Origin: an uncultured Candidatus Saccharibacteria bacterium | Lineage (GTDB): Bacteria; Patescibacteriota; Saccharimonadia; Saccharimonadales; Saccharimonadaceae | DNA length: 36,050 bases | NCBI GenBank assembly: GCA_947307355.1 | Contig: CAMZIV010000003.1 | Coordinates: forward strand, 1 to 36,050 | Reading direction: 5' to 3' | Shown here: positions 1,371-32,041 of the stretch, in pieces | Layout of the letters: each line of letters opens with the position of its first letter | Numbering within the stretch: position 1 is the stretch's first letter | Notes under the pieces: generated by a model | Seen by the model: only the letters and a program-made list of their open reading frames with translations | What the model was told of the DNA's origin: nothing | Database searches by the model: none | Translations under genes and position numbers: made by a program

Positions 1371-1372
1371 TT

Positions 1373-2572
1373 TTGCGCGCGATATGCTTGTATCTACACA
1401 TACATCAGCCAATTCGCTACCGCGAATATTCCATTTTTGATGTCTCGAATAATTCAGATTATTTTAATGATAGTTGGAATAGCAAACAAAGCAACGAGCG
1501 CATCTTTAAAAAAGTTGCCGAAAAAAGCTATCACCCAATGTTAGATTTAATTGAAAAGAATATCAAAAAATATCCTGATTTTAAACTTTCACTTTCTATT
1601 ACTGGCACTTGGCTCGAACAAGCCGAGAAATGGGATTACAGTCTTATCGAGCAAATCAAAAGATTGGTAGAAACAAAACAAGTCGAGATCGTAGGCGAAA
1701 CCTATTACCATTCCCTCGCCTTCTTCTTTGACCAAAAAGAATTTGAAGATCAAGTAAAAATGCATGACGAGAAGATTTTCGAACTTTTTGGTGTCCATCC
1801 AAAAGTCTTCCGTAACACCGAGTTAGCTTATAATGACAATCTAGCAAAATGGGCCGACGAAAAAGACTATAAAGGTATTCTCGCCGAAGGTTGGGACAGA
1901 GTTCTTGGCTGGCGTAGCCCAAATTATATTTATCGCCCAACTGGTTGCAAGAATATCAAGTTATTGCTCAAGAATTATCGTTTATCTGATGATATCGCTT
2001 TCCGCTTCTCCAACCGCAACTGGTCTGAATGGCCACTTACAGTGCCAAAATACATGAACTGGCTCGATATGGACTGTCTCCGTGGTAATCTCATTAATCT
2101 ATTCATGGATTTTGAAACCTTTGGCGAACACCAATGGAAAGACACCGGTATCTTTGATTTTATGGACAACCTAATTCCAAAATGGCTTGGCGAATACGAA
2201 AATAAATTCGTAACCGTATCAGAGGCTTGCGATTTATCTGGACCAGCCGACGAAATCTCTATGCCAGAAACTATCACCTGGGCCGATATGGAACGCGACT
2301 TATCCGCCTGGCTATCCAACTCAATGCAGAATTCTGCAATGAAAGATTTATATGCAATGAGAAATGACATCCTCGCCACAGGCGATGATAAATTAATCTC
2401 AGACTGGCGCAAAATGACCACATCCGATCATCCATACGCTATGTGTACTAAGTATTGGAACGATGGCGATGTCCACGCTTACTTCTCCGCATACTCTTCT
2501 CCATATGAAGGTTTCATGTACTTCATGAACGTCCTCCGCGATATAGAATATAGGTTGAACAACAAAAAATAG
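1373..2572 (+). CDS. Glycoside hydrolase family 57 (alpha-amylase-like), TTG start
   Basis: LHIHQPIRYREY N-terminus, FRNTELAYND (nucleophile region) and FMDFETFGEH (acid region) typical of GH57; starts 2 nt after the GT4 stop. Confidence 0.85.
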   Translation: MRAICLYLHIHQPIRYREYSIFDVSNNSDYFNDSWNSKQSNERIFKKVAEKSYHPMLDLIEKNIKKYPDFKLSLSITGTWLEQAEKWDYSLIEQIKRLVETKQVEIVGETYYHSLAFFFDQKEFEDQVKMHDEKIFELFGVHPKVFRNTELAYNDNLAKWADEKDYKGILAEGWDRVLGWRSPNYIYRPTGCKNIKLLLKNYRLSDDIAFRFSNRNWSEWPLTVPKYMNWLDMDCLRGNLINLFMDFETFGEHQWKDTGIFDFMDNLIPKWLGEYENKFVTVSEACDLSGPADEISMPETITWADMERDLSAWLSNSMQNSAMKDLYAMRNDILATGDDKLISDWRKMTTSDHPYAMCTKYWNDGDVHAYFSAYSSPYEGFMYFMNVLRDIEYRLNNKK

Positions 2573-2591
2573 CCCCTAAAGGGCTATTTTT
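2564..2591. terminator. Bidirectional intrinsic terminator between GH57 and rpmG
   Basis: AAAAATAGCCCCTAAAGGGCTATTTTT inverted repeat between convergent genes. Confidence 0.8.
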
Positions 2592-2799
2592 AACGTTTCT
2601 TTTCTTTAACTTCGTTACGACCGAGGTTCTTCTTGGTTTCAGTGAAAACAACGTGTTTACGTAGTACAGGATCATACTTCTTTAACGACAACTTGTCAGG
2701 AGTATTCATCGTGTTTTTCTTGGTGTAGTAAGCACGAACACCAGATTCCTCAGAAACGAGGCCAACGAGTTTGCGTTTAGTATTATTCTTCTTTGCCAT
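2590..2799 (-). CDS. rpmG: 50S ribosomal protein L33
   Basis: [56 protein letters not shown] matches L33; start trimmed from the ORF track to the MAKK methionine. Confidence 0.9.
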
Positions 2800-2868
2800 A
2801 ATTCTCACTATTTTACCACAGTTATCAAAAAATCGCAAGACCATTTAGCCCTGCGATTTGATGATTGA

Positions 2869-3069
2869 CTACCAAGATATATAACCGCTTCCGCGATCGA
2901 TGCCACTGCCTCCGCATTTATCACACCAAATGCCAAAGATTTTACCATCGCCATTACATTTTAAACACTTATCACGGCGAACGGTTTCATGCGTTGCTTC
3001 ATGTTGTCTTTTAGCAAATTCGTCTTTATAATCGAATAATTTGCCACAGTATTTGCATGCAGTTGTCAA
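2869..3069 (-). CDS. Small zinc-binding protein (C2H2-like CxxC...HxxxH plus CxxC...CxxC), TTG start
   Basis: CKYCGKLFDYKDEFAKRQHEATH and CLKCNGDGKIFGIWCDKCGGSG; GGGGGTGA upstream as possible SD. Confidence 0.6.
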   Translation of the reverse strand: MTTACKYCGKLFDYKDEFAKRQHEATHETVRRDKCLKCNGDGKIFGIWCDKCGGSGIDRGSGYISW

Positions 3070-3122
3070 TCATTTCACCCCCTTTCTCTAAACTACGAAA
3101 TTTTCGAATTTTTGATATTTTA

Positions 3123-6100: not shown

Positions 6101-6374
6101 CTAAAATCTCGGAACCAAAGGAATGATAAGTCGAAACGGTCACCTTAAGACCATCTTTTCCGACAATCCTTTTTAAGCGTTCTCGCATATTTTTGGCGCC
6201 GTTTTCAGTAAATGTTACGCACAAAATATTGGAAGGCGACGTATCAGTATTTTTTAGGATATAGGCTACTTTTTCCGAAAGCAATTGAGTTTTACCGGTT
6301 CCCGGTCCTGCCAGTACAAGCAAAGGTCCATCTAGATATTCTACGGCTTCTTTTTGCTTTGGATTCAAACCCAT
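3123..6374 (-). CDS. UvrD/PcrA-like superfamily 1 helicase with C-terminal PD-(D/E)XK nuclease domain
   Basis: Walker A AGPGTGKT, LDEFQDTNPSQ, GDDDQAIFEFQGA, LTAHGAKGLEFEYVF, VALTRAKKYLYI; C-term GTLIHSTFEK and GVIDHISINEDAKEIEIYDFKTS nuclease motif. Confidence 0.92.
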   Translation of the reverse strand: MGLNPKQKEAVEYLDGPLLVLAGPGTGKTQLLSEKVAYILKNTDTSPSNILCVTFTENGAKNMRERLKRIVGKDGLKVTVSTYHSFGSEILAQYKNYSDEYTRAMDNSIDEVKKFKLIKEIRDSLPGTDILHGDKVKDIIDVISSAKGANLSSEDLLKIAEINIEDSKVLSDTISPLLLNVVPRAFKESYENAYKPIYEVLKKYAEDTPTIELNNNNSVYRNIVPIAAAMKEAIMEAEATEKITPLSGWRDEFFEKTDNGTYRLKDRVSNKKLISVAKVMASYEEKLKEEGLFDFDDMIQEAVRVLKTDKGFCLTLAERYQFIMLDEFQDTNPSQLSIIQAITDYDKPMIMAVGDDDQAIFEFQGALSSNFASFQEHYNAHVIALTENYRNTQEILDFSHKIIMEAPDRYADKELTAHREALKSTGIHRIEFLSSDMEYDYVATKIAELVKSGVNQNEIAIISQKRKYFEPLLPFLNQHPEIKIAYEKQNDLLQDERIHQILTIARYIYECANELRVDVSLLEILSYPFFKLPILEVIKLSGAAKYSKTSSFDTFAGSENENIKAVMTFFANLIAKSFNEPLEIFLDFLIGATELEGYRSPFLSYYAAEKDYSTFTLYENLASLRGKLHKHFGEKPLRLVDLINMVDDYQEAEMGLNVISPYKEADEAVQVLTAHGAKGLEFEYVFIISADHSAWGRGKGNNNLLTLPKNLVHIRHTGITDSERLRVLYVALTRAKKYLYITNSKHDFSDKSPERLEYLEEYEDEEKVISPLIPAGVTETMYDLGAVQIAEKNIHTWMVPYVNASPDLMAIYKERVDNYRMSASSLTSFIDVCYAGPEAFFEDRILMAPVDIENDAMIFGTLIHSTFEKVTNDNLSDEEALEYFLAELDKKDLPQETKARLREKGPADLAISLKKFANILHNGKAEVNLGPDRLMIDGIPVTGVIDHISINEDAKEIEIYDFKTSGYHKEKWTSHSTLYKYMLQLGFYKLLLNNSPKYAKYKVNKAHILFVVPDNDSEVYDKVYDFNAVDEKMLLDIMKAVYYQISTLKFIEDPELMIAADSNKGIKDIKDFIALLLAKSGEK

Positions 6375-7144
6375 TCTTTGCTCCTACTGATTAAATCTTT
6401 GAGCTTTGTAGCGGTTTCTGGTACAATAATCGCACCATTTTTTACCTTAGAAAGCGCCGACAGGCCTTCCACGGTCTTTTCTGGTTCGGCCTTAGGATTT
6501 TTACGAAGAATCTGACCGAATTCATAATTACGTGAAGGATAGTTACAGGTTAGCTTTAGGTCACCTTTACCGCAGACACAGTCAATTGTAGCGGCCTTTG
6601 CTCCATTTGCCTCTAATACTTCTGCCATTTCTTTGGCGGTTTCAGAAAGAAACTTAGTGTGTTCTGGAGTTCCAGCCTCAAGACCAAGAAGACCACAATA
6701 TAGAGCGTAGATATTCTTAAGCGCGCCACACATCAAAACACCTTTTTCATCGTCAGTATAATCAAAGGTTAGATAATCAGTAGTGAATAAATCAATTACG
6801 CGCTGATCCGTAGCAGTCAGAACCGTCTTTTTCTGCGCTTTGATATCATCAGCAAAACCAGGCCCAGAAAGAATCATGTAATCTTTAAAATCTTCAAAGG
6901 TCTTATCAGAAAGAATGCCTTTGGTAGCCACAATCAATGGAATTTCATGTGGTACATTCGGCAAAACATACGGCGCTGCCTTAGAAGGCACAGCTAATAC
7001 AATCATATCAGCATCGGCCACGGTTTCTTTTAAAGTATCACCAGTACGATTAGAGTCATAATAATCAATGTCATGGCCTTTTTCTGCCAGAATTCCGCCA
7101 AGCGCGGTGCCAAAAGCCCCTGCCCCCAAAATTGCAATTTTCAT
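6365..7144 (-). CDS. gpsA: NAD(P)-dependent glycerol-3-phosphate dehydrogenase
   Basis: MKIAILGAGAFGTALGGILAEKG, ILSGPGFADDI, GALKNIYALYCGL motifs; start trimmed to MKIAIL. Confidence 0.85.
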   Translation of the reverse strand: MKIAILGAGAFGTALGGILAEKGHDIDYYDSNRTGDTLKETVADADMIVLAVPSKAAPYVLPNVPHEIPLIVATKGILSDKTFEDFKDYMILSGPGFADDIKAQKKTVLTATDQRVIDLFTTDYLTFDYTDDEKGVLMCGALKNIYALYCGLLGLEAGTPEHTKFLSETAKEMAEVLEANGAKAATIDCVCGKGDLKLTCNYPSRNYEFGQILRKNPKAEPEKTVEGLSALSKVKNGAIIVPETATKLKDLISRSKEWV

Positions 7145-7145
7145 T

Positions 7146-7988
7146 TTATTCCTTTGTCTTTTTGCATTTAATAATACGACTAACAATAAATGAGATTATC
7201 GAACAAACAGTCACAAAAGCGAGGAACATAAACCAAATTGGGCAAGCTACCATGATCTGAGTAGTTACATTGCTCTCGCCTAGGTAATCGATGGTCTGCG
7301 TAATTTCATAAATCCCAAGCGGAGAAATATCTTGGATACTAGTAGTTAAATACCTAGTGGTGCCAGGTAAAATTTCTTCTTGGATACCACCAGTTTTGCC
7401 TTCTTTTGGATAAACGATCTCACCATTAAGCACATTTTTTATCTGAAGATAAATATTTGCTGGCTCGTGTACATTGCCGTCATTTTTTAGCATTACATTG
7501 GATTTAGTTGGAAGCCCAGTTACAAAACCTGGGATAGAATTCTCTAGAACTTCGCCTTCATGATTAATCTCGCCGTCAATTTCGGCATAAATAAGGCTCG
7601 CAATACTGTAGATATTCTGTACACCAACACCCTCATTTACCAAAGAATTATCATTCTTACTGATAAGAAGCGCTGCGTATTGGCCACCGCCAGCCGCATC
7701 TTCCGGTACGGTAATCGTATAATTAATATGCACTTTATTATTTGGCGCAACGGTGCCAGTAGGGTTATCCACTTTAATCCAGTTCGCCATCTCGGTATTA
7801 GGAGTATTGGCGGTAAAATCAGCCTGGTATTCATTGCCAATCACGCCATATGGCATCACATCAACTTTATATTCAAAATCAGCCTTCGTATCTTCCGGAT
7901 TAGAAATCAAAATCGAACCCTGATAAACCTCACCAGGTTTAAGCTCGATTGCATTACTCATCGGCATAACGGTAAATGCATTATCCAT
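7146..7988 (-). CDS. DUF916/WxL-interacting-like Ig-fold protein with C-terminal transmembrane helix, no visible N-terminal signal peptide
   Basis: AIELKPGEVYQGSILISNPEDTKADFEYKVDVMPYG...AAGGGQYAALLIS resembles DUF916-type domains; C-term IWFMFLAFVTVCSIISFIVSRIIKCKK; AGGAGG SD directly upstream of ATG. Confidence 0.6.
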   Translation of the reverse strand: MDNAFTVMPMSNAIELKPGEVYQGSILISNPEDTKADFEYKVDVMPYGVIGNEYQADFTANTPNTEMANWIKVDNPTGTVAPNNKVHINYTITVPEDAAGGGQYAALLISKNDNSLVNEGVGVQNIYSIASLIYAEIDGEINHEGEVLENSIPGFVTGLPTKSNVMLKNDGNVHEPANIYLQIKNVLNGEIVYPKEGKTGGIQEEILPGTTRYLTTSIQDISPLGIYEITQTIDYLGESNVTTQIMVACPIWFMFLAFVTVCSIISFIVSRIIKCKKTKE

Positions 7989-7995
7989 ATTCCTC

Positions 7996-8553
7996 CTATT
8001 CTATAGATAATATTTTACCAGTACCGAGCTCAAGCTTCAAGAGCCTCTGGTTTTTTGACCCTCTAAATCTCAAGCTTAAATCTCTTTGGCTCAAGATAAA
8101 CGGACCGTCAATCAAAGCATCCAAAGATTTTAGAAATTCCCATGGTTCGCCACCAAATTCTTTGATAATCTCGTAAGTAAAACCAGAGAAGCTCCAAACA
8201 TCCCAACCAAGTTCTTTTCGGCAATAGTCAGCGATCTGTTTACAAGCCTTTGGTTGCACGAACGGTTCCCCACCACAGAAGGTAAGACCGGTTTGACCTT
8301 GGAGCTCAGATAGTTCTTTGCAAATATCATCTATTTTTACCAAAGTGCCTACAGTATAATCCCAAGTTTCTGGGTTTTGGCAACCTTTGCAATGATTTGG
8401 GCAACCTTGTGTCCAGAGGACAGCCCGAAGGCCGTCCCCATTCACAATGTTATCGTGTTCAATCGGACCAGATAATCTAATGTAGCCATCTGGCACTTCC
8501 ATCTGTTTGGCGATTTTGTCGAGCGCAATTTGGTGCCAATCGATGTCAGCCAT
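7996..8553 (-). CDS. nrdG: Anaerobic ribonucleoside-triphosphate reductase activating protein
   Basis: Radical SAM cluster CPNHCKGCQNPETWDY, LTFCGGEPFVQP; follows nrdD. Confidence 0.93.
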   Translation of the reverse strand: MADIDWHQIALDKIAKQMEVPDGYIRLSGPIEHDNIVNGDGLRAVLWTQGCPNHCKGCQNPETWDYTVGTLVKIDDICKELSELQGQTGLTFCGGEPFVQPKACKQIADYCRKELGWDVWSFSGFTYEIIKEFGGEPWEFLKSLDALIDGPFILSQRDLSLRFRGSKNQRLLKLELGTGKILSIE

Positions 8554-10748
8554 TATTCCCCCTTTGCGCAGCTACAAACCTTTTCGAAAGGCACATCACC
8601 TTCGAGACGGCCACAGTGTGGGCACCTATCACCACGAATGATACCAGAGAAGCCACAAACTGGGTCGCGATCTACTGGGTGGTTTACGGAACCGTAGCCA
8701 ATACCTTCATCATGCATCTTGCGAATTACGGCTTCGAAGGCTGCAATGTTTTGAGAAGGATCACCATCAAGCTCAATATAGGTAATATGACCTGCATTAC
8801 AGAGATTGTGGTATGGTGCTTCAATCTCAATCTTGCGGAAGGCAGAGATTGGGTAATACACAGGGACGTGGAAGGAGTTAGTGTAGAACTCACGATCGGT
8901 TACTCCTGGGATTACGCCAAATTCTTTCTTATCAATCTTGGTGAAGCGGCCTGCAATACCTTCAGCTGGAGTAGCAAGAAGTGAGAAGTTGAGGTGATAC
9001 TTCTTGCAGAAGCTATCACATTTTTCACGCATGTGGGTAATAATATCAAGACCAAGTTCTCTTGCATCATCATCTTCACCGTGGTGTTTACCAGTCATAG
9101 CTACGAGAGTTTCAGCAAGGCCGATGAAGCCGATAGAAAGAGTACCGTGCTTGATTACATCGCGAAGCGTATCGTTTGGACCAAGTTTTTCAGAACCCAT
9201 CCAGTTGCCTTGACCCATGAGGAATGGGAAGTTGCGAACATGTTGGTTAGCTTGGAATTCAAAACGATCTAGAAGTTGATCTTTTACAAGTTCTAGTTTT
9301 TCGTCGAGTTCTTTATAGAATCCATCCCAGTCAGCTTCCTTTAACTCGCCAGTACAGATACCATGTTTGATACCAATACGTACAAGATTAATGGTAGTAA
9401 ATGAAAGGTTGCCACGGCGAGTTGCGATGCCATCAGATTCTGGGAAAACAGAAGCAAATACACGTGTACGACAACCCATGGTTGCAATCTCGGTACGGTA
9501 ATCGCCCTTCTTGTAATACTTGAGGTTGTATGGAGCATCGATAAAGCAGAAGTTCGGGAAGAGACGCTTTGCGGATACTTCCATAGATCTCTTGAAGATA
9601 TCGTAGTTTGGATCTTTTGGATTATAGTTGATACCTTCTTTAACCTTGAGAATAGAGATCGGGAAGATTGGAGTCTCGCCTTTACCTAGACCATTCTCAG
9701 TAGCTTGGAGAAGGTCAAGAGAAACTAGACGACCGGCTGGAGTAGTATCAGTACCAAAGTTAATCGAAGTAAATGGCACCTGTGCACCAGCACGAGAATG
9801 CATAGTGTTAAGGTTGTGTACGAAGCCTTCCATAGCTTGAAGTGTTTCGTTTTCAACATCTTCGTTGGATGCATCAATAACTTCCTGTGGCCACTTTGCT
9901 TTTGCAAGTTTCTTATCATCACCATAATCGTAAGAGTCCTTGATAGGAAGATCAAGTTTCTTGCCAGTAAACTTATTGTATTTACCAAGATTGCGCTTCA
10001 AAGCTTTGCGGAAAGATTTATTTACGCCTGGGGCCATTGCATAGTCAAAGTTTGGAATCGATTGGCCACCGTGTTGCTCGTTTTGGTTAGCTTGCAATAG
10101 AATAGCGCAAAGCGCGGCATAGGAACCAATGGAATTTGGAGTACGTAGATGACCATGGCCAGTGTTGAAGCCGCCATTTTCAAACATCACAAATGGATCA
10201 CTTTGGCAGCAAGTAAGGGTACCAGTGGCGTAGAAATCCAAATCGTGAATATGGATGTCACCATTATCATGTGCAGCAGCGATATCAGGACGAAGAAGGA
10301 GAGATTTCGCAAAAACCTTCGAACCTTCAGCGCCAAATTGGAGCATCTTACCCATGGCAGAGTTACCATCGACGTTTGCGTTAGAACGCTTCACGTCGGA
10401 ATCTTCTGAAGCATCGGCGTGAGAAATAGTGCGATAAATCATCATAAGATCAGACTTAGCATCGCGTACGCGAGAACGCTCCTGGCGATAACGGATATAA
10501 GCTCTAGCGGTCTTTTTGTAGCTAGACTCCATCAAGACTTCTTCTACAATGTCTTGGATTTGCTCTACATTTGGCGTACGAGCAGAAATTTTCTTCTCGG
10601 CGAGTTCCAAAACTTTCTTAGTAAGAGATTCAGCCTTTTTAGCGTTAAACTCCTCGGTAGCGAGACCAGCCTTAGCGATAGCTTCGGTAATCTTCTCTGG
10701 ATCGAATTTTACAATCTTCCCATCCCGCTTTACAATTCTTTTGAACAT
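8553..10748 (-). CDS. nrdD: Anaerobic ribonucleoside-triphosphate reductase (class III) with ATP-cone
   Basis: N-term ATP cone MFKRIVKRDGKIVKFDPEKI; C-term CGFSGIIRGDRCPHCGR zinc site; TAAGGAGG SD. Confidence 0.95.
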   Translation of the reverse strand: MFKRIVKRDGKIVKFDPEKITEAIAKAGLATEEFNAKKAESLTKKVLELAEKKISARTPNVEQIQDIVEEVLMESSYKKTARAYIRYRQERSRVRDAKSDLMMIYRTISHADASEDSDVKRSNANVDGNSAMGKMLQFGAEGSKVFAKSLLLRPDIAAAHDNGDIHIHDLDFYATGTLTCCQSDPFVMFENGGFNTGHGHLRTPNSIGSYAALCAILLQANQNEQHGGQSIPNFDYAMAPGVNKSFRKALKRNLGKYNKFTGKKLDLPIKDSYDYGDDKKLAKAKWPQEVIDASNEDVENETLQAMEGFVHNLNTMHSRAGAQVPFTSINFGTDTTPAGRLVSLDLLQATENGLGKGETPIFPISILKVKEGINYNPKDPNYDIFKRSMEVSAKRLFPNFCFIDAPYNLKYYKKGDYRTEIATMGCRTRVFASVFPESDGIATRRGNLSFTTINLVRIGIKHGICTGELKEADWDGFYKELDEKLELVKDQLLDRFEFQANQHVRNFPFLMGQGNWMGSEKLGPNDTLRDVIKHGTLSIGFIGLAETLVAMTGKHHGEDDDARELGLDIITHMREKCDSFCKKYHLNFSLLATPAEGIAGRFTKIDKKEFGVIPGVTDREFYTNSFHVPVYYPISAFRKIEIEAPYHNLCNAGHITYIELDGDPSQNIAAFEAVIRKMHDEGIGYGSVNHPVDRDPVCGFSGIIRGDRCPHCGRLEGDVPFEKVCSCAKGE

Positions 10749-15390: not shown

Positions 15391-16030
15391 AGACGGCCGA
15401 ATAGATTTTTATGGGCGTGATTTTTTTGTGTCGCCCGACGTTTTAATTCCACGTCCAGAGACCGAGTCAATCATAGATATTGTTAAATCTCTGGCTGGTA
15501 AACCAATTCTGCCTGGTGTCAAAGCCCCAGCTCCAAAAATTGCCGAAAATGTCAAAATTCTAGACGTCGGCACTGGCTCTGGTTGTATTGCTGTAACTAT
15601 CAAAAAAGAACTTCCTCTAACCAAAGTTACAGGGGTAGATATTAATCCAAGCGCCCTTAAAGTTGCCGAAAAAAATGCCGAAAAACTTGGTGCAGACATA
15701 GAGCTAAAAGAATCCAATCTCCTTAGCAATGTAGAAAGCGAATATGACATTATCATCGCAAACCTTCCATATGTAGATGCAGGATGGGATTGGTTAGATA
15801 AAGAAGCCTTGTCATATGAACCGGCAACCGCTTTATACGCCGAAGACCATGGGCTTAAACTAATTAAAGAATTAATTAACCAAGCTAAAGAAAATACTAT
15901 ATATCTTATTCTAGAAGCCGACCCTTCCCAGCACAAATCTATCGTAGAATATGCCACAAAAAACGGGTTCCTGCACTCAGAAACCCGCGGTTTTGCTCTG
16001 TTATTTACTTATTGTACTCACCAAGAGTGA
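15362..16030 (+). CDS. prmC: PrmC-like release factor glutamine methyltransferase, short N-terminus
   Basis: [41 protein letters not shown] (NPPY motif replaced by NLPY); overlaps prfA 3' end. Confidence 0.82.
15957..15987 (-). terminator. Putative htrA terminator inside the prmC coding region
   Basis: Minus strand CGGGTTTCTGAGTGCAGGAACCCGTTTTTT. Confidence 0.55.
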
Positions 16031-17135
16031 CATTCACTGCAATCTCATTACCATCACGAATCACCGAAAGCTGCACCGTATCGCCAGGCTTGTATTCGCC
16101 AATCAAACTAGACATCGAACCTGCTTTACCAACCTTTGCACCATTAATAGCTGTGATAATATCTTTATCTTTGAGGCCAGCCTTAGCTGCTGGGCCATTA
16201 GAAATAATAGCAGAGTAGTTAGAACTATATAGATATGCGCCGGAAGAAACTGGAAGGTTGTAATTCTTCGCGATTTCAGCCGTAATCTCGACACCATAAA
16301 CACCAAGATATGCACGCTTAGCGGTACCTTTTTCAATTAATTGAGAAAGCATGCCCTTAACGCTTGAAATAGGAATAGCAAAGCCCATATTCTCCGATGA
16401 AGAAGAATCGCCAGTTGCGGAGTTGATACCAATTACTTCGCCCGCAGCATTTACGAGCGGACCACCAGAATTGCCTTGGTTAATTGCGGCATCGGTTTGA
16501 ATCATATCAGAAAGAGTCTCAGCGTTAGAACCGTTGCTATCAGTAGCAGTAAGCGAACGACCAGTACCAGAAATAATACCGGAAGTCACTGAGTTTTGAT
16601 ACTCACCGAGAGCGTTACCGATTGCAATCACCTGTTGGCCGACCGAGATCGTCTTAGAGTCACCAAGTTTTGCTGCCGGCAAGCTTGAAACATTTTCGAT
16701 TTTTAGATAAGCTACATCGTTTAATGGGTCCGTGGCAGCGAGCTTAACACTCTCATAAGTTGTACCGTCAGCTAGAACCACATTAATCTTATTTGCGCCT
16801 TCGATTACGTGTTTATTGGTAATAATGTAACCATCGGCAGTAGCAATAATACCAGTACCGGCTGCACCAGAATCGTAAGTGCCAAAGATAGTTCGCTGTT
16901 TGATCGAAGTTACAATCGACACCACGCTAGGCGAAACATAGTTAGCCACATCTGCAATTGAGCCCTCTACAAAGTTTGCAGCATTGCCATCAGAACCAGA
17001 ATTCAAAAAGGTGATAGGAGTATCGGTCTTAAAATACGCTAAAAGCGCAAAAGTAGTGCCTACGCCGCCCAAAATAAGTGCAAATAAGGCTATTGTAATT
17101 AAAAGACCATAGCCGCGCCTTCTGTTTTCTGTCAT
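16005..17135 (-). CDS. HtrA/DegP-like S1C serine protease with PDZ domain
   Basis: TM near N-term, GTGIIATADGYIITNKHVI, QTDAAINQGNSGGPLVNAAGEVIGIN, C-terminal PDZ; start at MTENRRR with TAAGGAGG SD. Confidence 0.9.
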   Translation of the reverse strand: MTENRRRGYGLLITIALFALILGGVGTTFALLAYFKTDTPITFLNSGSDGNAANFVEGSIADVANYVSPSVVSIVTSIKQRTIFGTYDSGAAGTGIIATADGYIITNKHVIEGANKINVVLADGTTYESVKLAATDPLNDVAYLKIENVSSLPAAKLGDSKTISVGQQVIAIGNALGEYQNSVTSGIISGTGRSLTATDSNGSNAETLSDMIQTDAAINQGNSGGPLVNAAGEVIGINSATGDSSSSENMGFAIPISSVKGMLSQLIEKGTAKRAYLGVYGVEITAEIAKNYNLPVSSGAYLYSSNYSAIISNGPAAKAGLKDKDIITAINGAKVGKAGSMSSLIGEYKPGDTVQLSVIRDGNEIAVNVTLGEYNK

Positions 17136-17145
17136 TTTTACCTCC

Positions 17146-17928
17146 TTAGATATTAAATATTGGGTTGCTAAAGAATACCACGATAATACCAATTAAGAAT
17201 ATTCCGAAAACCACCGGCCCAGCGATGTGTTTAAATCTAAAGTCGTCCTGGTATTTTACGATTGCCTGACGTGCATAATTATAAATAAACGCGAAGATAG
17301 TGAGGATAATAGCAGTCTGTGGAATACGAATACCAGAATTGCCAAAAGTATAAATAATGGACCAAGAATGGCAAAGCCAAGCGATTTCGCCAAACACCAA
17401 ACCACAGACAAAGGTAGTAAGAGTAAAATCTTCGTCATTTGTCTGAGCAAGTACATGACGGCTTGCGGCATAACCTATAACAAAAGCAAAAAGCACAGCC
17501 CAAAGAGATTCGAGATTGGCGGTTAAAATAGTTGATGCAGAAATTCCTAAGAATACGCCAATGAGCGACTGTGCCAAATTAGCATTTTCGGAGCTAAGTG
17601 GTTTAATAAAGAGCAGCCAAACAACATACATCGCCGCTAGAATGAAATGCACTGGAGCAAGAGAACTACCAGATACAAATGCCAGAAGAACAATACTGAT
17701 ACCGACGATAAGATCGACTAGGTTTGATTTAATATTTACCCATAGATAACGGCTACGCACTGCAAAGATACGCCACTTGGACATTACTACTAGAATAATA
17801 CCGAGCGCTGGATTGCCACTAAAAACAGTGACAAGCACAGACCCGAGCCCTAGCAATATGTTCAAAAACACATGCACTAGGTTCGATGCGATATTACGCG
17901 ATTTGCGGATAAATACAAAATCTGCCAT
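17146..17928 (-). CDS. Polytopic membrane protein of unknown function
   Basis: Multiple hydrophobic segments over 260 aa; directly upstream of htrA. Confidence 0.75.
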   Translation of the reverse strand: MADFVFIRKSRNIASNLVHVFLNILLGLGSVLVTVFSGNPALGIILVVMSKWRIFAVRSRYLWVNIKSNLVDLIVGISIVLLAFVSGSSLAPVHFILAAMYVVWLLFIKPLSSENANLAQSLIGVFLGISASTILTANLESLWAVLFAFVIGYAASRHVLAQTNDEDFTLTTFVCGLVFGEIAWLCHSWSIIYTFGNSGIRIPQTAIILTIFAFIYNYARQAIVKYQDDFRFKHIAGPVVFGIFLIGIIVVFFSNPIFNI

Positions 17929-17988: not shown

Positions 17989-18657
17989 ATGAAACCAACA
18001 TTCTTCCAAAAGTATCCAATGATAAAAGACATCCTTAGTTTATTCTGTTTCATTGGTGCAATTGTGCTTGGTACTCTCTTTTTAAACACCTATATTTATC
18101 GTTCTTACAACGTTGTAGGTGGCAGCATGGAAAATACTCTTCATAACGATGACCGTGTGATTGTAAACCGCGCTGCTGTTTCCTGGGCTCACCTCTGGGG
18201 CCAAGAATATATACCAGAACGAGGGCAAGTAATTGTCTTTGCTAATGAAGACGCTGAGCTCGTCAAAAAATACAAAGCTGAAGGCGTAGAACATCCAGTT
18301 ACTTGTAATGTACCAGATGGCGTCAATGATCAATATATTATTAAACGCGTAATCGCTTTTCCTGGCGAACGTGTCACTGTCAAAAATGGCATCATGAAAA
18401 TATATAACGACGAGCATCCAGATGGCTTTGTTTACGATACAGACTGGCGCGTTTCCGAAACCGATGGGCCAAAAGAATACACTTCTGGTGAAGTTGACAC
18501 TACCGTTCCAGAAGGCGAGCTATTTGTTTCTGGCGACAACCGCGAGGGCTCCAACTCTTGGGACTCCCGCAACGGCCTCGGCACTATCCCATATTGTCGT
18601 ATTATTGGCCCAGTTGTTTTCCGTCTATATCCGTTTGATAAGATGAGACTATTCTAA
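17989..18657 (+). CDS. lepB: Signal peptidase I
   Basis: GGSMENTLHNDDRVIVNR, IIKRVIAFPGERV, SGDNREGSNSWDSR motifs; N-term TM. Confidence 0.93.
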   Translation: MKPTFFQKYPMIKDILSLFCFIGAIVLGTLFLNTYIYRSYNVVGGSMENTLHNDDRVIVNRAAVSWAHLWGQEYIPERGQVIVFANEDAELVKKYKAEGVEHPVTCNVPDGVNDQYIIKRVIAFPGERVTVKNGIMKIYNDEHPDGFVYDTDWRVSETDGPKEYTSGEVDTTVPEGELFVSGDNREGSNSWDSRNGLGTIPYCRIIGPVVFRLYPFDKMRLF

Positions 18658-20543
18658 TTATTCTTATTAATACAACGAAGAACAGTTTTTGATGAATAGC
18701 CTAATTCACTGATAGGTGAAACCACGTGTTGTTCTATTTTAGTTACAGATAAACCATAAGTAGTACTACCGTTTTTATAAGTCGAAGAACGAATTAAAGC
18801 CTTTTGTCCAGCATCTTCATTGCCACTATAACTCGAACCGGTTAGTGTGATATGAAAAGCCTTTCGAAAAATCCAATAAATGCCATTAACACCTACGCCA
18901 CTATCACCAGAGTAAGAATTATACAACGTGCTATATTCTCCACCATAGGTTTCCCCACCATTGGCTGGCAAAGGACCACCAGTAGGAAGCCGCCAACCAA
19001 ATGGGCAAACATCTTCGGGAGAATCTATGGCAGTATCAGCTATATCAATAGGAGATTTGTACGGTCCAGGGCACACATAACCAGCCGTAGCAGCACAATA
19101 ATTATAAAATATACCAGTTTTCCAATTATATGCTTCATCAGATACTACAAAAGAAGAGCTATCTTTTGCGACACTATCTTTATATGCAGTATAAATGATA
19201 GGGTTTTGGTTAGCGCTACCATAATAATGGTCATAGACGCCAGATTCAGGTCTATAGCCACTTCGGCCGGCAGCCCCAGCACCATTAATTAAATAATTAA
19301 TGGATTCATCAGACGCATTCGTATTTGTAGAGTCAAGCACAGATTGAACATTTGTGTCAACGAGGTTGAGCGCAAGGTTATCAAGCATCCAGCATCTACC
19401 GTCTTGCATTTTTGCAATACGATAAGACTTATAATCACGGAGGTCGAGAACGACAGCTTCAGAACCTTTCATGGTCGCATAGTCGCATACACTTACACCG
19501 TCGATGGTCAGCCCAATATCCTGAATGGCAAATCTTAAGTCATTCGCAGGAATTCCATCATAGTCAGACTCCTCTGTAGCCTCAAAGTAGGTACCATCGT
19601 ATCGAGGCACATAGAGGCCTTTTTTGTAACGTCCCGCGTTAGTATCATAATAGTGGCCTGAATTATTCTCATTTCTTACATAAGCCTGCTCAAAAGCGTC
19701 TTGAAGAGTCTTGCCAGCATATCCACTGCCACCACTCTGTCCACTATTCTCGACCCATTGAGCATATAAATTAATAGTAGTCGTTGCAGCTGAAAGTGCT
19801 TTGCCATCAATAAAAGTATCAAGATCTCTATAACTTACACCTAATCCGTCTGCTCTGGTATTCCAGTACGCAAAATCATATCCCTCAACGCTAAATCCGT
19901 TACCGTTAAGAATAGTTGGTTCACCCCTAAATACTAACTGACTCGGAGTAGAACCAGTTGCGTTTGTATTATTAGCATTAAATACGACGGTATCTCGGGG
20001 AGCATTTGGGTTTGTAACCACATTAAAAGTCAAAGTAGTCTCATAAGCACCAGATGGCTTAGACCCATCAACCTTGGCAGCAAGGTTAACAATATGATTT
20101 GTCCCATTTGTCGGTTCTTCTACAAACCAAGAGTCTGGAGTATTACTCTTAAGGACAGGGAGGTAATCATTATCTACCACTTTGTAGCCCCAAGCATTAG
20201 CTGGAAAAGTAGATTCAGGAGCAGAATTAGAAAGCGTAGGAATTACTGTATTCGCCAAAGAATTATGTATTAAATCCGTAGTAGGAACAGACATAGATAG
20301 CCTATATCCATTCATATTATTCGTAGCAACACTTACAGTAACATTTGTAGTACCGAATACGGCATTACTTGACGTAGGGTTCAGTTCAATGCTAGCAGTT
20401 GGTGGCACGGTTAACTGCAAAGCAGCGTCCGATACATCAATAGAAAATTGGGTTAAATTTTCGGCAAAAGTAACGGCGCCTGAATTAAGTGCAAAAAAAG
20501 TAGATACAAAGCAAACAACACCAACTGCAACTCTTTTATTCAT
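18654..20543 (-). CDS. Secreted FISUMP-domain protein with one Listeria-Bacteroides (InlB B-type) repeat
   Basis: Signal peptide MNKRVAVGVVCFVSTFFALNSGAVTFAE; YWNTRADGLGVSYRD...INLYAQW repeat; MQDGRCWMLDNLALNL...CPFGWRLPTGG...VLRCINK (Fibrobacter succinogenes major paralogous domain pattern). Confidence 0.8.
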   Translation of the reverse strand: MNKRVAVGVVCFVSTFFALNSGAVTFAENLTQFSIDVSDAALQLTVPPTASIELNPTSSNAVFGTTNVTVSVATNNMNGYRLSMSVPTTDLIHNSLANTVIPTLSNSAPESTFPANAWGYKVVDNDYLPVLKSNTPDSWFVEEPTNGTNHIVNLAAKVDGSKPSGAYETTLTFNVVTNPNAPRDTVVFNANNTNATGSTPSQLVFRGEPTILNGNGFSVEGYDFAYWNTRADGLGVSYRDLDTFIDGKALSAATTTINLYAQWVENSGQSGGSGYAGKTLQDAFEQAYVRNENNSGHYYDTNAGRYKKGLYVPRYDGTYFEATEESDYDGIPANDLRFAIQDIGLTIDGVSVCDYATMKGSEAVVLDLRDYKSYRIAKMQDGRCWMLDNLALNLVDTNVQSVLDSTNTNASDESINYLINGAGAAGRSGYRPESGVYDHYYGSANQNPIIYTAYKDSVAKDSSSFVVSDEAYNWKTGIFYNYCAATAGYVCPGPYKSPIDIADTAIDSPEDVCPFGWRLPTGGPLPANGGETYGGEYSTLYNSYSGDSGVGVNGIYWIFRKAFHITLTGSSYSGNEDAGQKALIRSSTYKNGSTTYGLSVTKIEQHVVSPISELGYSSKTVLRCINKNN

Positions 20544-22317
20544 AGGGTTCAAGCCTATTAATGCAACGTACAGGATAACCATAGTTGCGTCCAGCAGTAC
20601 CGGTACCGCTATTTCTCCCTGTATGCCAAGAATAGTACATCATCATATTATCCGCTGCCCTTGTAGAAGTCCACATGCCGCCGCCAGTCCCAGTTGCTTG
20701 TGCCCAACCATACCAGAATATACCCGAATAGGAGAGTCTAAAAGCCGTCAAGAAATTACCATACCCATAAACATTCTGAATATATAAATTTTCACCATTT
20801 GGCCCACCAGTCGGCATACGCCAACCGTAAGGACAAATATCATATTGAGAGTCAATATCTGTGCCAGGTCTATCTTCTGGCGAGCCAGCAGAATTTCCAC
20901 CACTACCATAGCAATAACTGCCCGCAGAAGCAGCACAAAAATTATAATAGCCACCATATTTATATCCACGTATATCAACATTAGTAAAGTGTGAAGTATT
21001 TAACCAGGCATCGGAAAAAGATGCACCAGAAGCAGTCCAGTTTGTAGGGCGCGATGTTGCCCAACGATCGGAACTATTGCCGTTACCATTTCTATAGTGG
21101 TTAAGGACATCGTTTGTAGCATTTGTATTTGTTTCATCCATACCGTTAAGCACATTACTATTTAACACGTCGAGTGCAAGATTTTCCAACGTCCAACAAC
21201 GCCAATCAGCCATTCTGCCAATCGTGTAAGTTTTGCCATCACGTACATCAAGCACGTTTAAAGTGTCATTAACAATAGTTACACTTTCACAAATCTCACG
21301 TGTCATATCTTGTAATGCAAATCTTAAGTCACTTGCGGGAATACCATCGTAATCCGAAGCTTGCGTGCCCTGAGAATAGGTACCATTATATTCACCGGTA
21401 TCTGGGTCTTTATTCGGAACGTACAGGCCTTTCCCATCCCTGGTATAAGCAATTTCATAAGCGCGCGCAAGGGATGTACCGGTCGCGCCACCACTGCCAC
21501 TGCCGCCCATATCAGGAATATCATTAGACACCCAAATAGCATATAGAGTAACCCTTCTGTTAGTAATAATATTAGGAACGGTGTATTGTGATTGGTCACT
21601 GTAAACCATCCCCGAACCAGAAGCAGTTGTGCTCCAACCCACAAAACGATAGCCGTCATAGGCAAATGTATTCGCTGGGAGATTTGCGGAAGTGCCCGTG
21701 TCGATACTGATATCACTCATGGATCCAGTAGCCCCATTAGCATTTTTATTAAACGAAATGGTGTCGTGTGCAATCGTCGGTTTTGTCACCGCTTGGAAAA
21801 TAAGTGTAGTTTCATAGCTACCAGAAACCTGTGTGGCATCTACTTTGGCTGCAAGTGTCAACGTATGGGTTTCACCATTCGTTGGCTCATCAGAATCCCA
21901 TGTGCTGAGATTATTGGAAGTAAGTACAGGATTATAATTATCTCCAATCACTTTATACCCCCAAGCATTAGCTGGAAATGTAGATTCAGGAGCCGAGGTG
22001 GCAAGTGTCGGAATTACAGGAGTGTCATCTTGAATTCCAGTATGAGTCAAGTCTGTATTAGGGACATTCATAACTATCGAATAACCAGTAGAATTATTCG
22101 TAGCGATAAATAGATTCAAATTCGTAGAACCAAAAACTCCTCCTGCAAAAGTAGGGGTAAGATTAATCACGGCCGAAGCCGGGACATATAATTCTAGCAC
22201 AGTATCAGCCACATCAACAGAGAATTTTGTTGGACCTTCGGCAAAAGTAACGGCGCTCGAATTAAGCATAAAAACAGCACAAATTGTACAAATTACACCT
22301 ATTACCCTTTTTACCAT
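20536..22317 (-). CDS. Secreted FISUMP-domain protein with one B-type repeat (paralogue of the next gene)
   Basis: Signal peptide MVKRVIGVICTICAVFMLNSSAVTFAE; FVGWSTTASGSGMVYSDQ...VTLYAIW; MADWRCWTLENLALDV...CPYGWRMPTGG...YPVRCINR. Confidence 0.82.
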   Translation of the reverse strand: MVKRVIGVICTICAVFMLNSSAVTFAEGPTKFSVDVADTVLELYVPASAVINLTPTFAGGVFGSTNLNLFIATNNSTGYSIVMNVPNTDLTHTGIQDDTPVIPTLATSAPESTFPANAWGYKVIGDNYNPVLTSNNLSTWDSDEPTNGETHTLTLAAKVDATQVSGSYETTLIFQAVTKPTIAHDTISFNKNANGATGSMSDISIDTGTSANLPANTFAYDGYRFVGWSTTASGSGMVYSDQSQYTVPNIITNRRVTLYAIWVSNDIPDMGGSGSGGATGTSLARAYEIAYTRDGKGLYVPNKDPDTGEYNGTYSQGTQASDYDGIPASDLRFALQDMTREICESVTIVNDTLNVLDVRDGKTYTIGRMADWRCWTLENLALDVLNSNVLNGMDETNTNATNDVLNHYRNGNGNSSDRWATSRPTNWTASGASFSDAWLNTSHFTNVDIRGYKYGGYYNFCAASAGSYCYGSGGNSAGSPEDRPGTDIDSQYDICPYGWRMPTGGPNGENLYIQNVYGYGNFLTAFRLSYSGIFWYGWAQATGTGGGMWTSTRAADNMMMYYSWHTGRNSGTGTAGRNYGYPVRCINRLEPYE

Positions 22318-27435: not shown

Positions 27436-30411
27436 TTAGTAATTTGCAATACAACGCACCGAAAGGGCATACCATTTATTTGTAGTAGATTGGTTATTTC
27501 CAAAATACGAATAACCATACATATTAGCAATAATAGTAAGCCCTTGTTCTCTACCATCAGGACTAGAGCTACTGGTCCAAAGCTTACCTTGCTCACCACG
27601 AGCAGAGCCAGTTTCATTTGCACTATAAGAACCAGCGAGTACGAAGTTCACAGGATATGAGAGCCAGTGGTTAGTAAGAGCATAAGTGGTGTTGCGAACA
27701 CCATTACCGCCCATAGCTTCATCAAGCTTGGAGCCTTCAGCGCCAGTTCTACCAGTTGGTAGATGCCAACCAGATGGGCAAATATCACCAGCGGTCCTTT
27801 CAGTTCCTAAATAATTAGTGCCATTTCCAGCTGTCGCAGTGTACCAGTTGTAGTGACCACCATAAGCATACCAAGAAGTCACATTCGACTCATCATTATA
27901 ACTAGCAGGATTATTGCGATTTATTTCTGCCACACTAAATGAAATTCTATCTTCGCATTCTGCACCTATAGTAGCACATGGTGCGATTGTAGAGGTAATA
28001 TTATTGTCAAAACGCAATTGAAGCTCCCTTAGAAAACCAGGCGTTGGATTATTAGTATTACTAGTAGTAATATAAACATCCGGATTATTTAAATCTAGGC
28101 GCAAATTTTCAATCATCCACCAGTGACCGTCAGCAAGTTTAGCAACAGCATAGATTTCATCATCGCGTGCATCACGAAGTGCGATTACGGTACCAATTGG
28201 TGCATGAGCGTCAAACGCACCACTAAACTCCTGCATCGTTAGATAGCCGACTGGCTCAATCCATTGTGCATAAAGATAAATGTCATCCTCGGCTGGCAAA
28301 TCAATGTATTCATTTGGACCGTACATTGTACCAGAGCCATCAGCCTTGGTATTCCAGCCAATATAACTATGTCCAGCTAAACTGTAGTTTGGTGCAATAA
28401 GAGTTGCATTATGTTTTGGCGGGCAAATAGTCTGTACGCCCATCTCACCAACCACCCCATTAGCATTTGGCATATAATGGATATTCACACAATTCTCTTC
28501 CCAAATCGCGTATAGAGTAGAATCAGCAGAAATAGTATAATCATCACCAGCATGGAATTGTTCTTCTTCATAAATATAGTTTACACCACCAACTTTATCC
28601 TTATTTTCCTCTTCAACCCAAGCATACAAATGATAGTGATTACGAGTCGGCACAGAGTCAGTGACTGTAAAGGTATGAGTCCGATCCGCAGTATTTACGG
28701 TCTCGGCGGCTGGAGCATCTACGCCACCATTCGCATCATAGGTAAGAGTGATATCGCGAGGAGTGATATTAGCCATATAAGAATCGCCTACCACGCAACG
28801 GGCAGACAGACTAAAACCAGACCCACCACCCATTTGTACGCCAGCCATGAAGGTACCTGAAGTCCCGCCTTCAACACCAGGCAGCATAAGCATCGTAGCA
28901 TATAGGTTGTAACTACTATTGCCATGATCATACAGAGCATCACTGCCCAAATAATAACCAACTCCACCACGATAAAGAGCATCGCTCGTTTGGCCAAAGA
29001 AAGCACCGTATCCTGGAGCATAAAGTCCAGAAAAAACGTAATTATTTGGATAACTTGTCCAAGCAACAATTTGCTCATCCATGCTTTGAGTACCATCTGG
29101 ATCTAACGCCTCTTCAAGGGCACGATAATCACCCCCATCATCACCACTTGGTAGTCTCCAACCGGTTGGACAAATCAATTCGTCACGTGCTTCATCTTCG
29201 GAGTAGTAATGCCCATAGGCATAAATATCTCCGTTTGGAGCAGGATTATCCGCGCGATCTTCAGAGGTGTTGTCATTAGCTGAATCATTAGTAACTTTAC
29301 GACTATTTTCGATAGTCCAACAATTCCCGTTTGCAAGTTTTGCAACAGCATAAGTCTGCCCATCTATATCATCAAGCGCTGTGATATCACCTACATTCAA
29401 GGTGTCACAAGAGAAGCCCACCATTTCACCAGCGGACTCAATCCAATTTGCGTATAACTTAAGCGAACCACTTTCCGGCATAGTAATAGTCTCATTTGGC
29501 CCATAATTTACACCAGTGCCATCAGGGCTCGTATTCCAGCTAGCAAAACCATAGCCACGACGAGAGAAGTTCGATGCCATTAATATTACTTCATCACCAG
29601 CATCAGCCGTTTGATCTGCCATTGTACCACCATTAGCGCCATTACTGTAATAGCAAATACCAGTGCAGGCGCGATAATAGAAAGTCATATCATTATGAAT
29701 CGTAATCGAATCATCTAACGTTGCCGCAGCGTTCACTGCGAACGATAACACAACCGTAACGGCCGTAGCCGAAACCGCCATCGTAGTCACCGCTACCTTT
29801 TTATACTTTTTAAAATAACGGACTCCTACAATAATAGCCGCCACCAAGATCGCAACAGCGGGAACAGCAACCGCACCCACATTTTGCATCGTCCCGGCGC
29901 CGGTATTTGGTACCACAATCGCCAAAATTTCTTCCTCTTCCTCATCACCAGTCACAATATCTTCATAAGTAATTTTAATCAACGTATCAAAGGTCTGGTC
30001 AGCAAGACTTGCACCTTCAATTTCAGTGGTATATACAGCGATTAAGATATAATCAAAAGTCTCCCCAGAGGCAAAAGTCTGGTCAATATCTCCATTATAC
30101 ACATATGTAAGATATGGGTTGGGGTTTTCTACAGTAAGACGCACTACTTTGCGTGCATTAATATCAGTGTTTCTCAACGTAAGAGTATATTCTACATATT
30201 CGTCCAGGCCACCAAAGACCACTTCGTTGGCAAAACTGTCTTCACCCCCGCCAGTAATTACGGCAGTGGTGGCGGCAGATTTATCCGTAATCTCCACGCC
30301 ATCTAATTTAAAGATATTTCCTTCAGCAAAAGCGGAGGGCACAGTCAAAAAAGTACCCACGATAATAATCAGGGCACCCAACACTGCGCTTAATTTTTTT
30401 GTTATTTTCAC
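27436..30411 (-). CDS. Large surface protein with two FISUMP domains, three B-type repeats and an internal VPNTG-TM segment (GTG start)
   Basis: Signal peptide VKITKKLSAVLGALIIIVGTFLTVPSAFAEG; VVPNTGAGTMQNVGAVAVPAVAILVAAIIVGVRYFKKYKK then a second TM; KLANGNCWTIEN...CPTGWRLPSG and KLADGHWWMIENLRLDL...CPSGWHLPTG; LYANW/LYAIW/LYAQW repeats. Confidence 0.8.
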   Translation of the reverse strand: MKITKKLSAVLGALIIIVGTFLTVPSAFAEGNIFKLDGVEITDKSAATTAVITGGGEDSFANEVVFGGLDEYVEYTLTLRNTDINARKVVRLTVENPNPYLTYVYNGDIDQTFASGETFDYILIAVYTTEIEGASLADQTFDTLIKITYEDIVTGDEEEEEILAIVVPNTGAGTMQNVGAVAVPAVAILVAAIIVGVRYFKKYKKVAVTTMAVSATAVTVVLSFAVNAAATLDDSITIHNDMTFYYRACTGICYYSNGANGGTMADQTADAGDEVILMASNFSRRGYGFASWNTSPDGTGVNYGPNETITMPESGSLKLYANWIESAGEMVGFSCDTLNVGDITALDDIDGQTYAVAKLANGNCWTIENSRKVTNDSANDNTSEDRADNPAPNGDIYAYGHYYSEDEARDELICPTGWRLPSGDDGGDYRALEEALDPDGTQSMDEQIVAWTSYPNNYVFSGLYAPGYGAFFGQTSDALYRGGVGYYLGSDALYDHGNSSYNLYATMLMLPGVEGGTSGTFMAGVQMGGGSGFSLSARCVVGDSYMANITPRDITLTYDANGGVDAPAAETVNTADRTHTFTVTDSVPTRNHYHLYAWVEEENKDKVGGVNYIYEEEQFHAGDDYTISADSTLYAIWEENCVNIHYMPNANGVVGEMGVQTICPPKHNATLIAPNYSLAGHSYIGWNTKADGSGTMYGPNEYIDLPAEDDIYLYAQWIEPVGYLTMQEFSGAFDAHAPIGTVIALRDARDDEIYAVAKLADGHWWMIENLRLDLNNPDVYITTSNTNNPTPGFLRELQLRFDNNITSTIAPCATIGAECEDRISFSVAEINRNNPASYNDESNVTSWYAYGGHYNWYTATAGNGTNYLGTERTAGDICPSGWHLPTGRTGAEGSKLDEAMGGNGVRNTTYALTNHWLSYPVNFVLAGSYSANETGSARGEQGKLWTSSSSPDGREQGLTIIANMYGYSYFGNNQSTTNKWYALSVRCIANY

Positions 30412-30481
30412 TGTATGACCTTTTTTATTAAGCTTATTTTTATAATAACATAGTATGTCTAATAATTGCAAGAAAGAAAAT

Positions 30482-30519: not shown

Positions 30520-31197
30520 TTAGAAAGGAGTCAAAATTGGGAACAAGTCCCTTTCACCTTTAAACGCGCGAAGAGCACGTGTATCGGTCTTAATTATAGA
30601 ATCAGACGTTGTAGAGAACTCTTTGGCTACCTGCGCTACGGTTTTAGGCTCACAATCTTTAAGCCCGTAAAGGCTTAGGATCTTACGGTATTCTATACCA
30701 GTGCCACCAAGCACCTTTGCCAAAGCTTGTCTTACATTGTAATACTCTTTTTCTGCGGGTTTTCTAAAACTTTCATAATTTTCGTTAAAAGTTTCCGGCT
30801 TATAATCAGTCTGGCCTTTTTTACTCGAATACATGAAGGTTTCGACTGACGCCGGGAATTCGCCCTTTAACTGGGAGTTATAGAATAATATTCTATAAAA
30901 TCTGTATAACACGAATGATTTCTCATCTATATCGTGTCTGATGTACCCAGCGGCGTCCAGCGCCTCAAATATCTCTCTGTAGTATCTGCCATTTTGTGCT
31001 CCAGCACGGCACGACGGATAAACATCCAAATCGCCTTGAGCAAAGGCACATCTAGCATCAAATATGATGCCTTCGATGGAATGGACATTTCTAGGTCCTT
31101 CCTCTTCCTCAAGATACCACTTTAAAAATTTTCTAGTCGGTTCAGACAAATTTAATTTATCGAACGACTTTAAACTCTTTGCTTTCTTAACAACCAT
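30520..31197 (-). CDS. Hypothetical protein with C-terminal sigma-70 region-4-like HTH
   Basis: C-term ILSLYGLKDCEPKTVAQVAKEFSTTSDSIIKTDTRALRAFKGERD parallels sigma region 4; AAAGGAGGTG SD. Confidence 0.65.
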   Translation of the reverse strand: MVVKKAKSLKSFDKLNLSEPTRKFLKWYLEEEEGPRNVHSIEGIIFDARCAFAQGDLDVYPSCRAGAQNGRYYREIFEALDAAGYIRHDIDEKSFVLYRFYRILFYNSQLKGEFPASVETFMYSSKKGQTDYKPETFNENYESFRKPAEKEYYNVRQALAKVLGGTGIEYRKILSLYGLKDCEPKTVAQVAKEFSTTSDSIIKTDTRALRAFKGERDLFPILTPF

Positions 31198-31321
31198 GTT
31201 AACACCTCCTTTGAAAGCAATTCCGATTCTCCTCTCTAATTTTAATGTACACTATATCTCTCCATTATACCACAAAATGCTTATTTTGTCAATGTGGACA
31301 GCTTATGGTAAAATAAAAATA

Positions 31322-32041
31322 ATGAGTTTTTGGCGTAAAAAAACTACTTGGTGTATTCTCGTGCTGATCCTTGCGACAGTATCAGTGGCAGCGTTTTTTA
31401 TCGTAAAAAACTTAAATACAACCGATAAGCCTGTAGAGGAACCAGTTGCTACCATCGAAGAAACTCCAACCCCTGAACCAAAACCAAAGCGCGAACCCGA
31501 ACCGGAATATACCGGCGAACATGGATTCTATATTGAAGTAAACCGTTCTCAAAATGTTGTAATTATTTATGCCCTTGATCCAAGTGGCAACAAAGCAAAT
31601 ATTCTCAAAATCTTTGTTAGCTCCGTTGGCAAGGCCGGTTCCGAGACCATCGTCGGTACGTTTAAAACCTCAGCAAAATTCGAATCCTTATATCTAGTTG
31701 GCAACGTTTGGGGTCGCTACGCCACCCGTATCGACGGCCGTTATTATTTTCATTCCGTTCCCTATTTTTCAAAAGGAAATCCTTTCTGGAATGACTTAGA
31801 ATATGAAGAATACAACAAACTCGGCGAAGGTGCATCTGCCGGATGTGTAAGACTGGCTGTTAGAAACGCAAAATGGATTTATGAAAATATCCCCGCTGGC
31901 ACCACAGTCTATATATATGATTCCGACACCTTACCGGAAGGAATAGAAAAACCAAGCGCGATTAAAATTGACATAAATAGCCCCAACCGCGGCTGGGACC
32001 CTACCGACCAAGATGAAAATAATCCGTGGGGACAAATTTAA
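31322..32041 (+). CDS. L,D-transpeptidase (YkuD family), membrane anchored
   Basis: N-term TM, Pro/Glu-rich linker, HSVPYFSKG and SAGCVRLAVRNAKWIYENI catalytic motif. Confidence 0.88.
   Translation: MSFWRKKTTWCILVLILATVSVAAFFIVKNLNTTDKPVEEPVATIEETPTPEPKPKREPEPEYTGEHGFYIEVNRSQNVVIIYALDPSGNKANILKIFVSSVGKAGSETIVGTFKTSAKFESLYLVGNVWGRYATRIDGRYYFHSVPYFSKGNPFWNDLEYEEYNKLGEGASAGCVRLAVRNAKWIYENIPAGTTVYIYDSDTLPEGIEKPSAIKIDINSPNRGWDPTDQDENNPWGQI

Follow-up and report, generated by a model that had tools for sequence, protein, structure and literature searches.

Here, we describe a 991-residue protein of a Candidatus Saccharibacteria bacterium in which a stretch resembling a C-terminal sortase sorting signal lies near the N-terminus, ahead of another, signal-like helix and a long chain of surface-type domains. 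It is encoded in the window, by which we mean the whole stretch of 36,050 nucleotides that was analysed, contig C3 of a 0.66 Mb genome that is 93% complete. With moderate confidence we read the protein as a conserved two-part precursor, a surface polyprotein from which sortase would take the N-terminal part and signal peptidase would free the C-terminal part, both cuts being predicted. The architecture and its conservation, the agreement of the motif with the lineage's own sorting signals, an AxA site after the second helix and the genes for both enzymes in this genome all speak for this reading.

The reading frame is open across 27436-30411 on the minus strand, on which all features of the gene lie, and starts with GTG preceded by AAAAGG; the translation is matched by a full-length orthologue (L176). 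A promoter-like site of the gene's own (TTGCAA-18-TATTAT with TG before the second hexamer, 30442-30471), found by consensus scan only, and a terminator-like hairpin of the neighbouring gene just upstream suggest that the gene is a unit of its own. The protein begins with a signal peptide (aa 1-29, 30325-30411), recognized by sequence and hydropathy only and predicted to be cut between AFA and E, within which AlphaFold2 places a helix at 3-23. It is followed by an Ig-like beta-sandwich domain (aa 34-166, 29914-30312) that ends in an acidic linker (acidic run at aa 156-161), the internal motif VPNTG (aa 167-171, 29899-29913; predicted cut between T170 and G171), a first hydrophobic segment, TM1 (aa ~179-197, 29821-29877), the basic, predicted cytoplasmic loop RYFKKYKK (aa 198-205, 29797-29820), a second, internal signal-peptide-like helix, TM2 (aa 206-225, 29737-29796), and a predicted signal peptidase site between VNA and AA (aa 226-230, 29722-29736). 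About 760 residues follow VNAAA, or 786 counted from KKYKK, and comprise a first List_Bact repeat (Flg_new; aa 259-321, 29449-29637, the best PF09479 stretch), a first FISUMP domain (aa ~329-543, 28783-29427), List_Bact repeats 2 and 3 (aa ~554-720, 28252-28752) and a second FISUMP domain (aa ~724-991, 27439-28242; PF09603 at 762-988, TIGR02145 at 838-989), the limits of the first FISUMP domain and of repeats 2 and 3 being set by eye. All elements named in the preliminary description of this DNA, from the signal peptide through the Ig-like domain, acidic linker, VPNTG, TM1 and basic tail to TM2, were thus recovered by sequence, hydropathy and AlphaFold2, and its three B-type repeats and two FISUMP domains were found again by Pfam and TIGR02145. 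The seemingly complete wall protein that it saw at the N-terminus is present as well, with a length of about 205 residues and not about 190.

The AlphaFold2 model of the first 237 residues (mean pLDDT 81), built on an alignment of 53 sequences, shows a confident beta sandwich at 34-166, a disordered motif region at 168-174 and consecutive helices at 179-202 and 204-229. Foldseek with this model returned generic Ig-like folds only, no sequence relative of the N-terminal part was found in the PDB, and among Pfam and NCBIfam models none fitted, the matches being weak ones to DUF11-type and Ig-like families. For the C-terminal part, three Flg_new and two Fib_succ_major stretches were found by Pfam with both families over cut-off, and the FISUMP scores exceed the curated cut-offs (TIGR02145 76.1 against a cut-off of 41.65; PF09603 56.2 against 33.9). 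In a check for the CLec fold of C-type-lectin-like variable proteins, the FISUMP domain itself was modelled with middling confidence (pLDDT 74.5), and Foldseek gave no significant match to it. FISUMP domains are reported targets of diversity-generating retroelements with similarity to DUF1566 (PMC4159848), which makes a binding role of the C-terminal part plausible, and by this analogy the FISUMP part may be a ligand-binding domain.

A search of 60 genomes of the window's genus with the N-terminal 207 residues gave full-length matches within long open frames, and a profile made from ten of the modules found there was used for wider searches. The module occurs in 24 of 174 genomes of the window's genus (g1) and in nine genomes of a second, sister genus of the same family (g11), and 60 proteins from these 33 genomes carry the whole of it, each in one open frame. 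In all 60, when read, the Ig-like domain is followed by a P-x-T/S motif and by TM1 and TM2 with a short basic loop between them, and a C-terminal part comes last. Strong full-length matches beyond the two genera were absent from class-wide (127 genera) and phylum-wide (281 genera) samples. The C-terminal parts have a median length of 746 residues, the shortest ending at contig ends, and are unrelated to one another, with FISUMP, List_Bact repeats, DUF285 (BspA-like) and a metallo-beta-lactamase fold among them. The last of these is ComEC-like (L025 and, by eye, L026), and the hairpin thus also precedes enzyme-like domains. The window's own genome, which was searched by family and profile and of which stretches only were read, has a paralogue with VPNTGANT on contig C21. 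The orthologue L176 (CAMZEA010000001.1, from another Saccharibacteria MAG) is matched over residues 1-991, with 53% identity in the best segment, and is a single reading frame that keeps the hairpin. Judged by these sequences, the architecture is a shared N-terminal module of two genera and not the oddity of one locus.

This distribution bears directly on the possibility of a recent fusion of neighbouring genes by loss of a stop codon, or of a sequencing or assembly error. The N-terminal part does resemble a complete wall-anchored protein, KKYKK serves at the same time as n-region for a second signal peptide, and other FISUMP proteins of the genome begin directly with an ordinary signal peptide. 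The same single-frame architecture nevertheless recurs in independent MAGs, including the full-length orthologue, and in the paralogue of the own genome, and no split version was found among them. We regard such an origin as extremely improbable and have rejected it on the strength of the independent MAGs. The suggestion that two proteins had been peculiarly fused at this locus, and the expectation that orthologues might show two separate genes, are accordingly not borne out. That the module itself arose long ago by a fusion is likely. The best candidate for a split orthologue in another genus (L277 of genome G310) proved by eye to be an unrelated camelysin-like protein.

Across the 53-row alignment the mean column identity is 26%, and P168 is the sole invariant column; T170, N81 and Y127 are conserved in at least 90% of the rows. 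The conservation of P168 and T170 indicates that the motif is more than a chance occurrence. The exact VPNTG is not needed, since some relatives lack the glycine (L018 reads APDTSG), and so does the nearest orthologue, L176, where NPKTDSD stands in place of VPNTGAG. In the window's genus, canonical C-terminal anchors are of the form PxTG in 21 of 23 cases and never PxTxD, and the internal motifs comprise 31 PxTG, 8 PxTxD and 3 others. In the sister genus, 15 of 16 canonical anchors are PxTxD and none PxTG, and the internal motifs comprise no PxTG, 15 PxTxD and 3 others. The canonical anchors were gathered with models derived from the internal motifs, each model being applied to both genera, and since internal and canonical motifs share descent within a genus these counts are non-independent and their agreement is not independent evidence. 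As far as can be read from these counts, the internal motif is of the same form as the ordinary C-terminal sorting signals of the lineage in question, and the own genome has ordinary anchors with FPNTGANE and YPNTGPVE.

Sortase genes had been proposed as a check on the prediction, and three (PF04203, over cut-off) are present in the own genome, on contigs C28, C5 and C11. They best match the class C/E, F and D models, all under the subclass cut-offs, and no class B sortase was identified there with TIGR03064 and the other subclass models. The sister genus carries class B sortases over the TIGR03064 cut-off, and so does one genome of the window's genus (G130). Within the window's genus a tie between NPxTxD and the class B enzyme is only suggestive, because genome G123 has the motif and no class B sortase was found in it, and in G042 the enzyme is present but the module reads VPNTG. 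Co-occurrence of sortases with the module proved uninformative as a test, all 44 of 44 genomes having sortases with or without the module. In G130, G140, G148 and G042, class B-type sortase genes lie beside a small PxT-anchored protein, and at L237, L238, L239 and L255 the class B-type sortase adjoins a protein of 203-218 residues that ends in P-x-T, a transmembrane segment and a basic tail. Such an enzyme and its small anchored neighbour may possibly form a dedicated enzyme-substrate pair in Saccharibacteria.

One may ask whether the motif still functions, or whether the hairpin is a static, uncut structure with both ends outside in which PxTG persists as an inherited relic of a former sorting signal. 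The loss of the glycine in several relatives, the nearest orthologue among them, and the existence of minimal hairpins with nothing to sort are in line with such a remnant. A remnant would be expected to decay, whereas nearly all of the 53 very divergent relatives retain P and T, and the motif follows the sortase substrates of each lineage, including the shift to PxTxD where class B sortases occur. A static hairpin is for these reasons considered unlikely.

The second site lies after TM2, where the -1 column is Ala in 47 of the 60 proteins and the -3 column is A, V, T or I in 57. After removal of near-duplicates, [AVTSI]xA is found in the same columns in 41 of 53 relatives, compared with a maximum of 19 in 40 shuffles of the tail and 19 at the TM1 region. 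The window protein has the features of an internal signal peptide at this place, with KKYKK as a basic n-region, the hydrophobic TM2 and the small residues of VNA, and a signal peptidase I gene is located in the window itself (17989-18657, plus strand). Both hydrophobic segments and the basic loop are found in 60 of 60 relatives; the net charge of the loop is at least +2 in every one of them, and its flanks are negative on average (-2.6 and -1.9). By the positive-inside rule, this charge pattern would place the motif and the C-terminal part outside. The membrane hairpin with both ends outside, as first proposed, is thereby upheld as a prediction, and the two plausible cleavage sites named at the time, at VPNTG and after the second transmembrane segment, are both conserved. 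Two sites inside the hairpin, P-x-T before TM1 and [A/V]-x-A after TM2, are by this comparison of sequences under constraint.

Conservation of the first site and its match with the lineage require sortase only, and the protein might therefore be cut at PxTG while TM2 is left intact, so that the Ig-like domain would go to the wall and the C-terminal part would be held in the membrane by the hairpin or by TM2 alone. The lack in the C-terminal parts of any other membrane anchor, such as a parasite's surface adhesin would require, also suits this arrangement. A plain membrane anchor would have no need of AxA, however, and the -3/-1 AxA pattern is the most conserved feature of TM2, far over the shuffles, which leads us to consider an uncut TM2 rather unlikely.

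For the two-part precursor, the following series of events is envisaged. The N-terminal Ig-like domain would be exported by Sec until VPNTG-TM1-KKYKK stops the transfer as a C-terminal sorting signal would, and TM2, acting as an internal signal peptide, would restart export of the 760-residue FISUMP and repeat part. Sortase would, we infer, cut VPNTG between T and G and attach the Ig-like domain to an acceptor, for which the cell wall and other surface proteins are candidates. Signal peptidase I is predicted to cut after VNA, and the C-terminal part would be freed as a secreted, possibly ligand-binding domain. The TM1-loop-TM2 hairpin would act as a linker tying production of the two chains together and would then be discarded. 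Since the C-terminal parts of the module proteins carry no C-terminal anchor, a freed part would be secreted or held non-covalently.

Nine relatives fit this scheme less well, and it is mainly because of them that our confidence in the two-part precursor is held to a moderate level. In these, PxTG-TM1-loop-TM2 stands at the very N-terminus behind a tail of 20-50 residues, with neither a signal peptide nor an Ig domain. No obvious counterpart is known for a sortase motif placed at the N-terminus. Cutting by sortase would here release next to no product, so that a two-product model explains them poorly; either the hairpin itself is what counts, for instance by serving as sortase acceptor once it has been cut, or the tail plays an unseen role. 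Four FISUMP proteins with such bare-tail hairpins stand in tandem at L279 (G046:C1:52000-62000, 1257-8819, plus strand), and further bare hairpin proteins with tails of 20-50 residues, likewise without a signal peptide, are found at L315, L318, L319, L321 and L324.

The minimal hairpins with a short N-terminal tail would be accounted for if the hairpin were generally a sortase acceptor, in which a new N-terminal Gly before TM1, or Ala before the C-terminal part, received PxT-ended surface proteins and the hairpin or the C-terminal part became joined to partners. Ala does often follow the predicted signal peptidase cut (22 of 60 proteins), but the glycine of the motif is not invariant and the residues after it are variable, and we hold a general acceptor function to be highly improbable. 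It is likewise very doubtful, if conceivable, that PxT[G]-TM1-basic loop-TM2-AxA is a distinct mobile module at the N-terminus of surface proteins in Saccharibacteria, a sorting-signal hairpin through which sortase and signal peptidase jointly process a single chain. One gene would then give rise to two separate surface proteins or, once both sites are cut, the N-terminal part would be joined to the new N-terminus of the C-terminal part, so that the hairpin is lost by sortase-mediated splicing.

In teaching and in annotation alike, sortase signals are regarded as C-terminal. In the textbook scheme, a C-terminal PxTG-hydrophobic-basic signal stalls export, sortase cuts between T and G, and the tail stays behind (PMC4617865). 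The window protein resembles substrates with an LPXTG-type C-terminal sorting signal (TIGR01167/PF00746) in having P-x-T-G, a hydrophobic stretch, a basic run, a signal peptide and an acidic linker, and its motif is the same as that of the C-terminal anchors of its own genome. Unlike in those substrates, the signal occupies aa 167-205 of a chain of 991, with another signal-like helix and about 760 further residues behind it. As the known sorting signals stand at the C-terminus, the protein is set apart as a variant and not counted as a member. Nothing on internal or N-terminal sorting signals was found in the open-access literature searched. The substrates of class B sortases (NPxTx type, TIGR03064 enzymes) offer a second comparison, given that PxTxD occurs at internal and canonical sites in the sister genus and in some genomes of the window's genus, with class B sortases next to PxTxD proteins; the own genome differs in that no class B enzyme was identified in it. 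Bacterial precursors cut at an internal signal peptide exist, an example being FbcH, which gives cytochrome b and c1 as two chains from one reading frame. Unlike in a precursor of this type, the window protein has a sortase signal at the end of its first chain, and the second chain differs from one module protein to the next. The C-terminal part, scoring over curated cut-offs, is like other FISUMP (TIGR02145/PF09603) and List_Bact (PF09479) surface proteins. Taken by its sequence features, the module suggests a sortase signal joined to a signal peptide.

A whole lineage of tiny episymbionts appears to carry sortase signals within its largest surface proteins, or even at their very beginning, and to couple them to another export signal. 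Were processing to occur as predicted, one gene would give two chains in fixed ratio, one linked to the wall and one secreted; the use of such polyproteins is to our knowledge rare in bacteria. It would also follow that in Saccharibacteria sortases act on the giant proteins that probably come into contact with their host bacteria, and that substrates of this kind escape annotation tools. The window locus is not among the TIGR01167 matches of its own genome; the window module matches no anchor model of NCBIfam, and any one of these models matches at most 4 of the 53 members.

The leader AAAGGTCATACA lies at 30412-30423 (minus strand), directly ahead of the start codon of the 991-residue reading frame. 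It is also found ahead of three of the four FISUMP genes at L279 in another genome and at one other site in the own genome; as a marker of hairpin genes it was rejected, there being only two sites in the own genome. The own genome (contigs C1-C50) gave 43 FISUMP matches at E 0.01 or better, an unusually large family of surface proteins for a genome of this size, and most of those with the start seen have an ordinary signal peptide and no hairpin, the paralogue on C21 being an exception. Two further FISUMP-like secreted proteins with a List_Bact repeat are encoded in the window at 18654-20582 and 20536-22317 (minus strand), with full-model scores under the FISUMP cut-off. The window also encodes an HtrA-like trypsin/PDZ protease (16005-17192, minus strand) and a YkuD L,D-transpeptidase (31064-32041, plus strand), which together with signal peptidase I are envelope enzymes.
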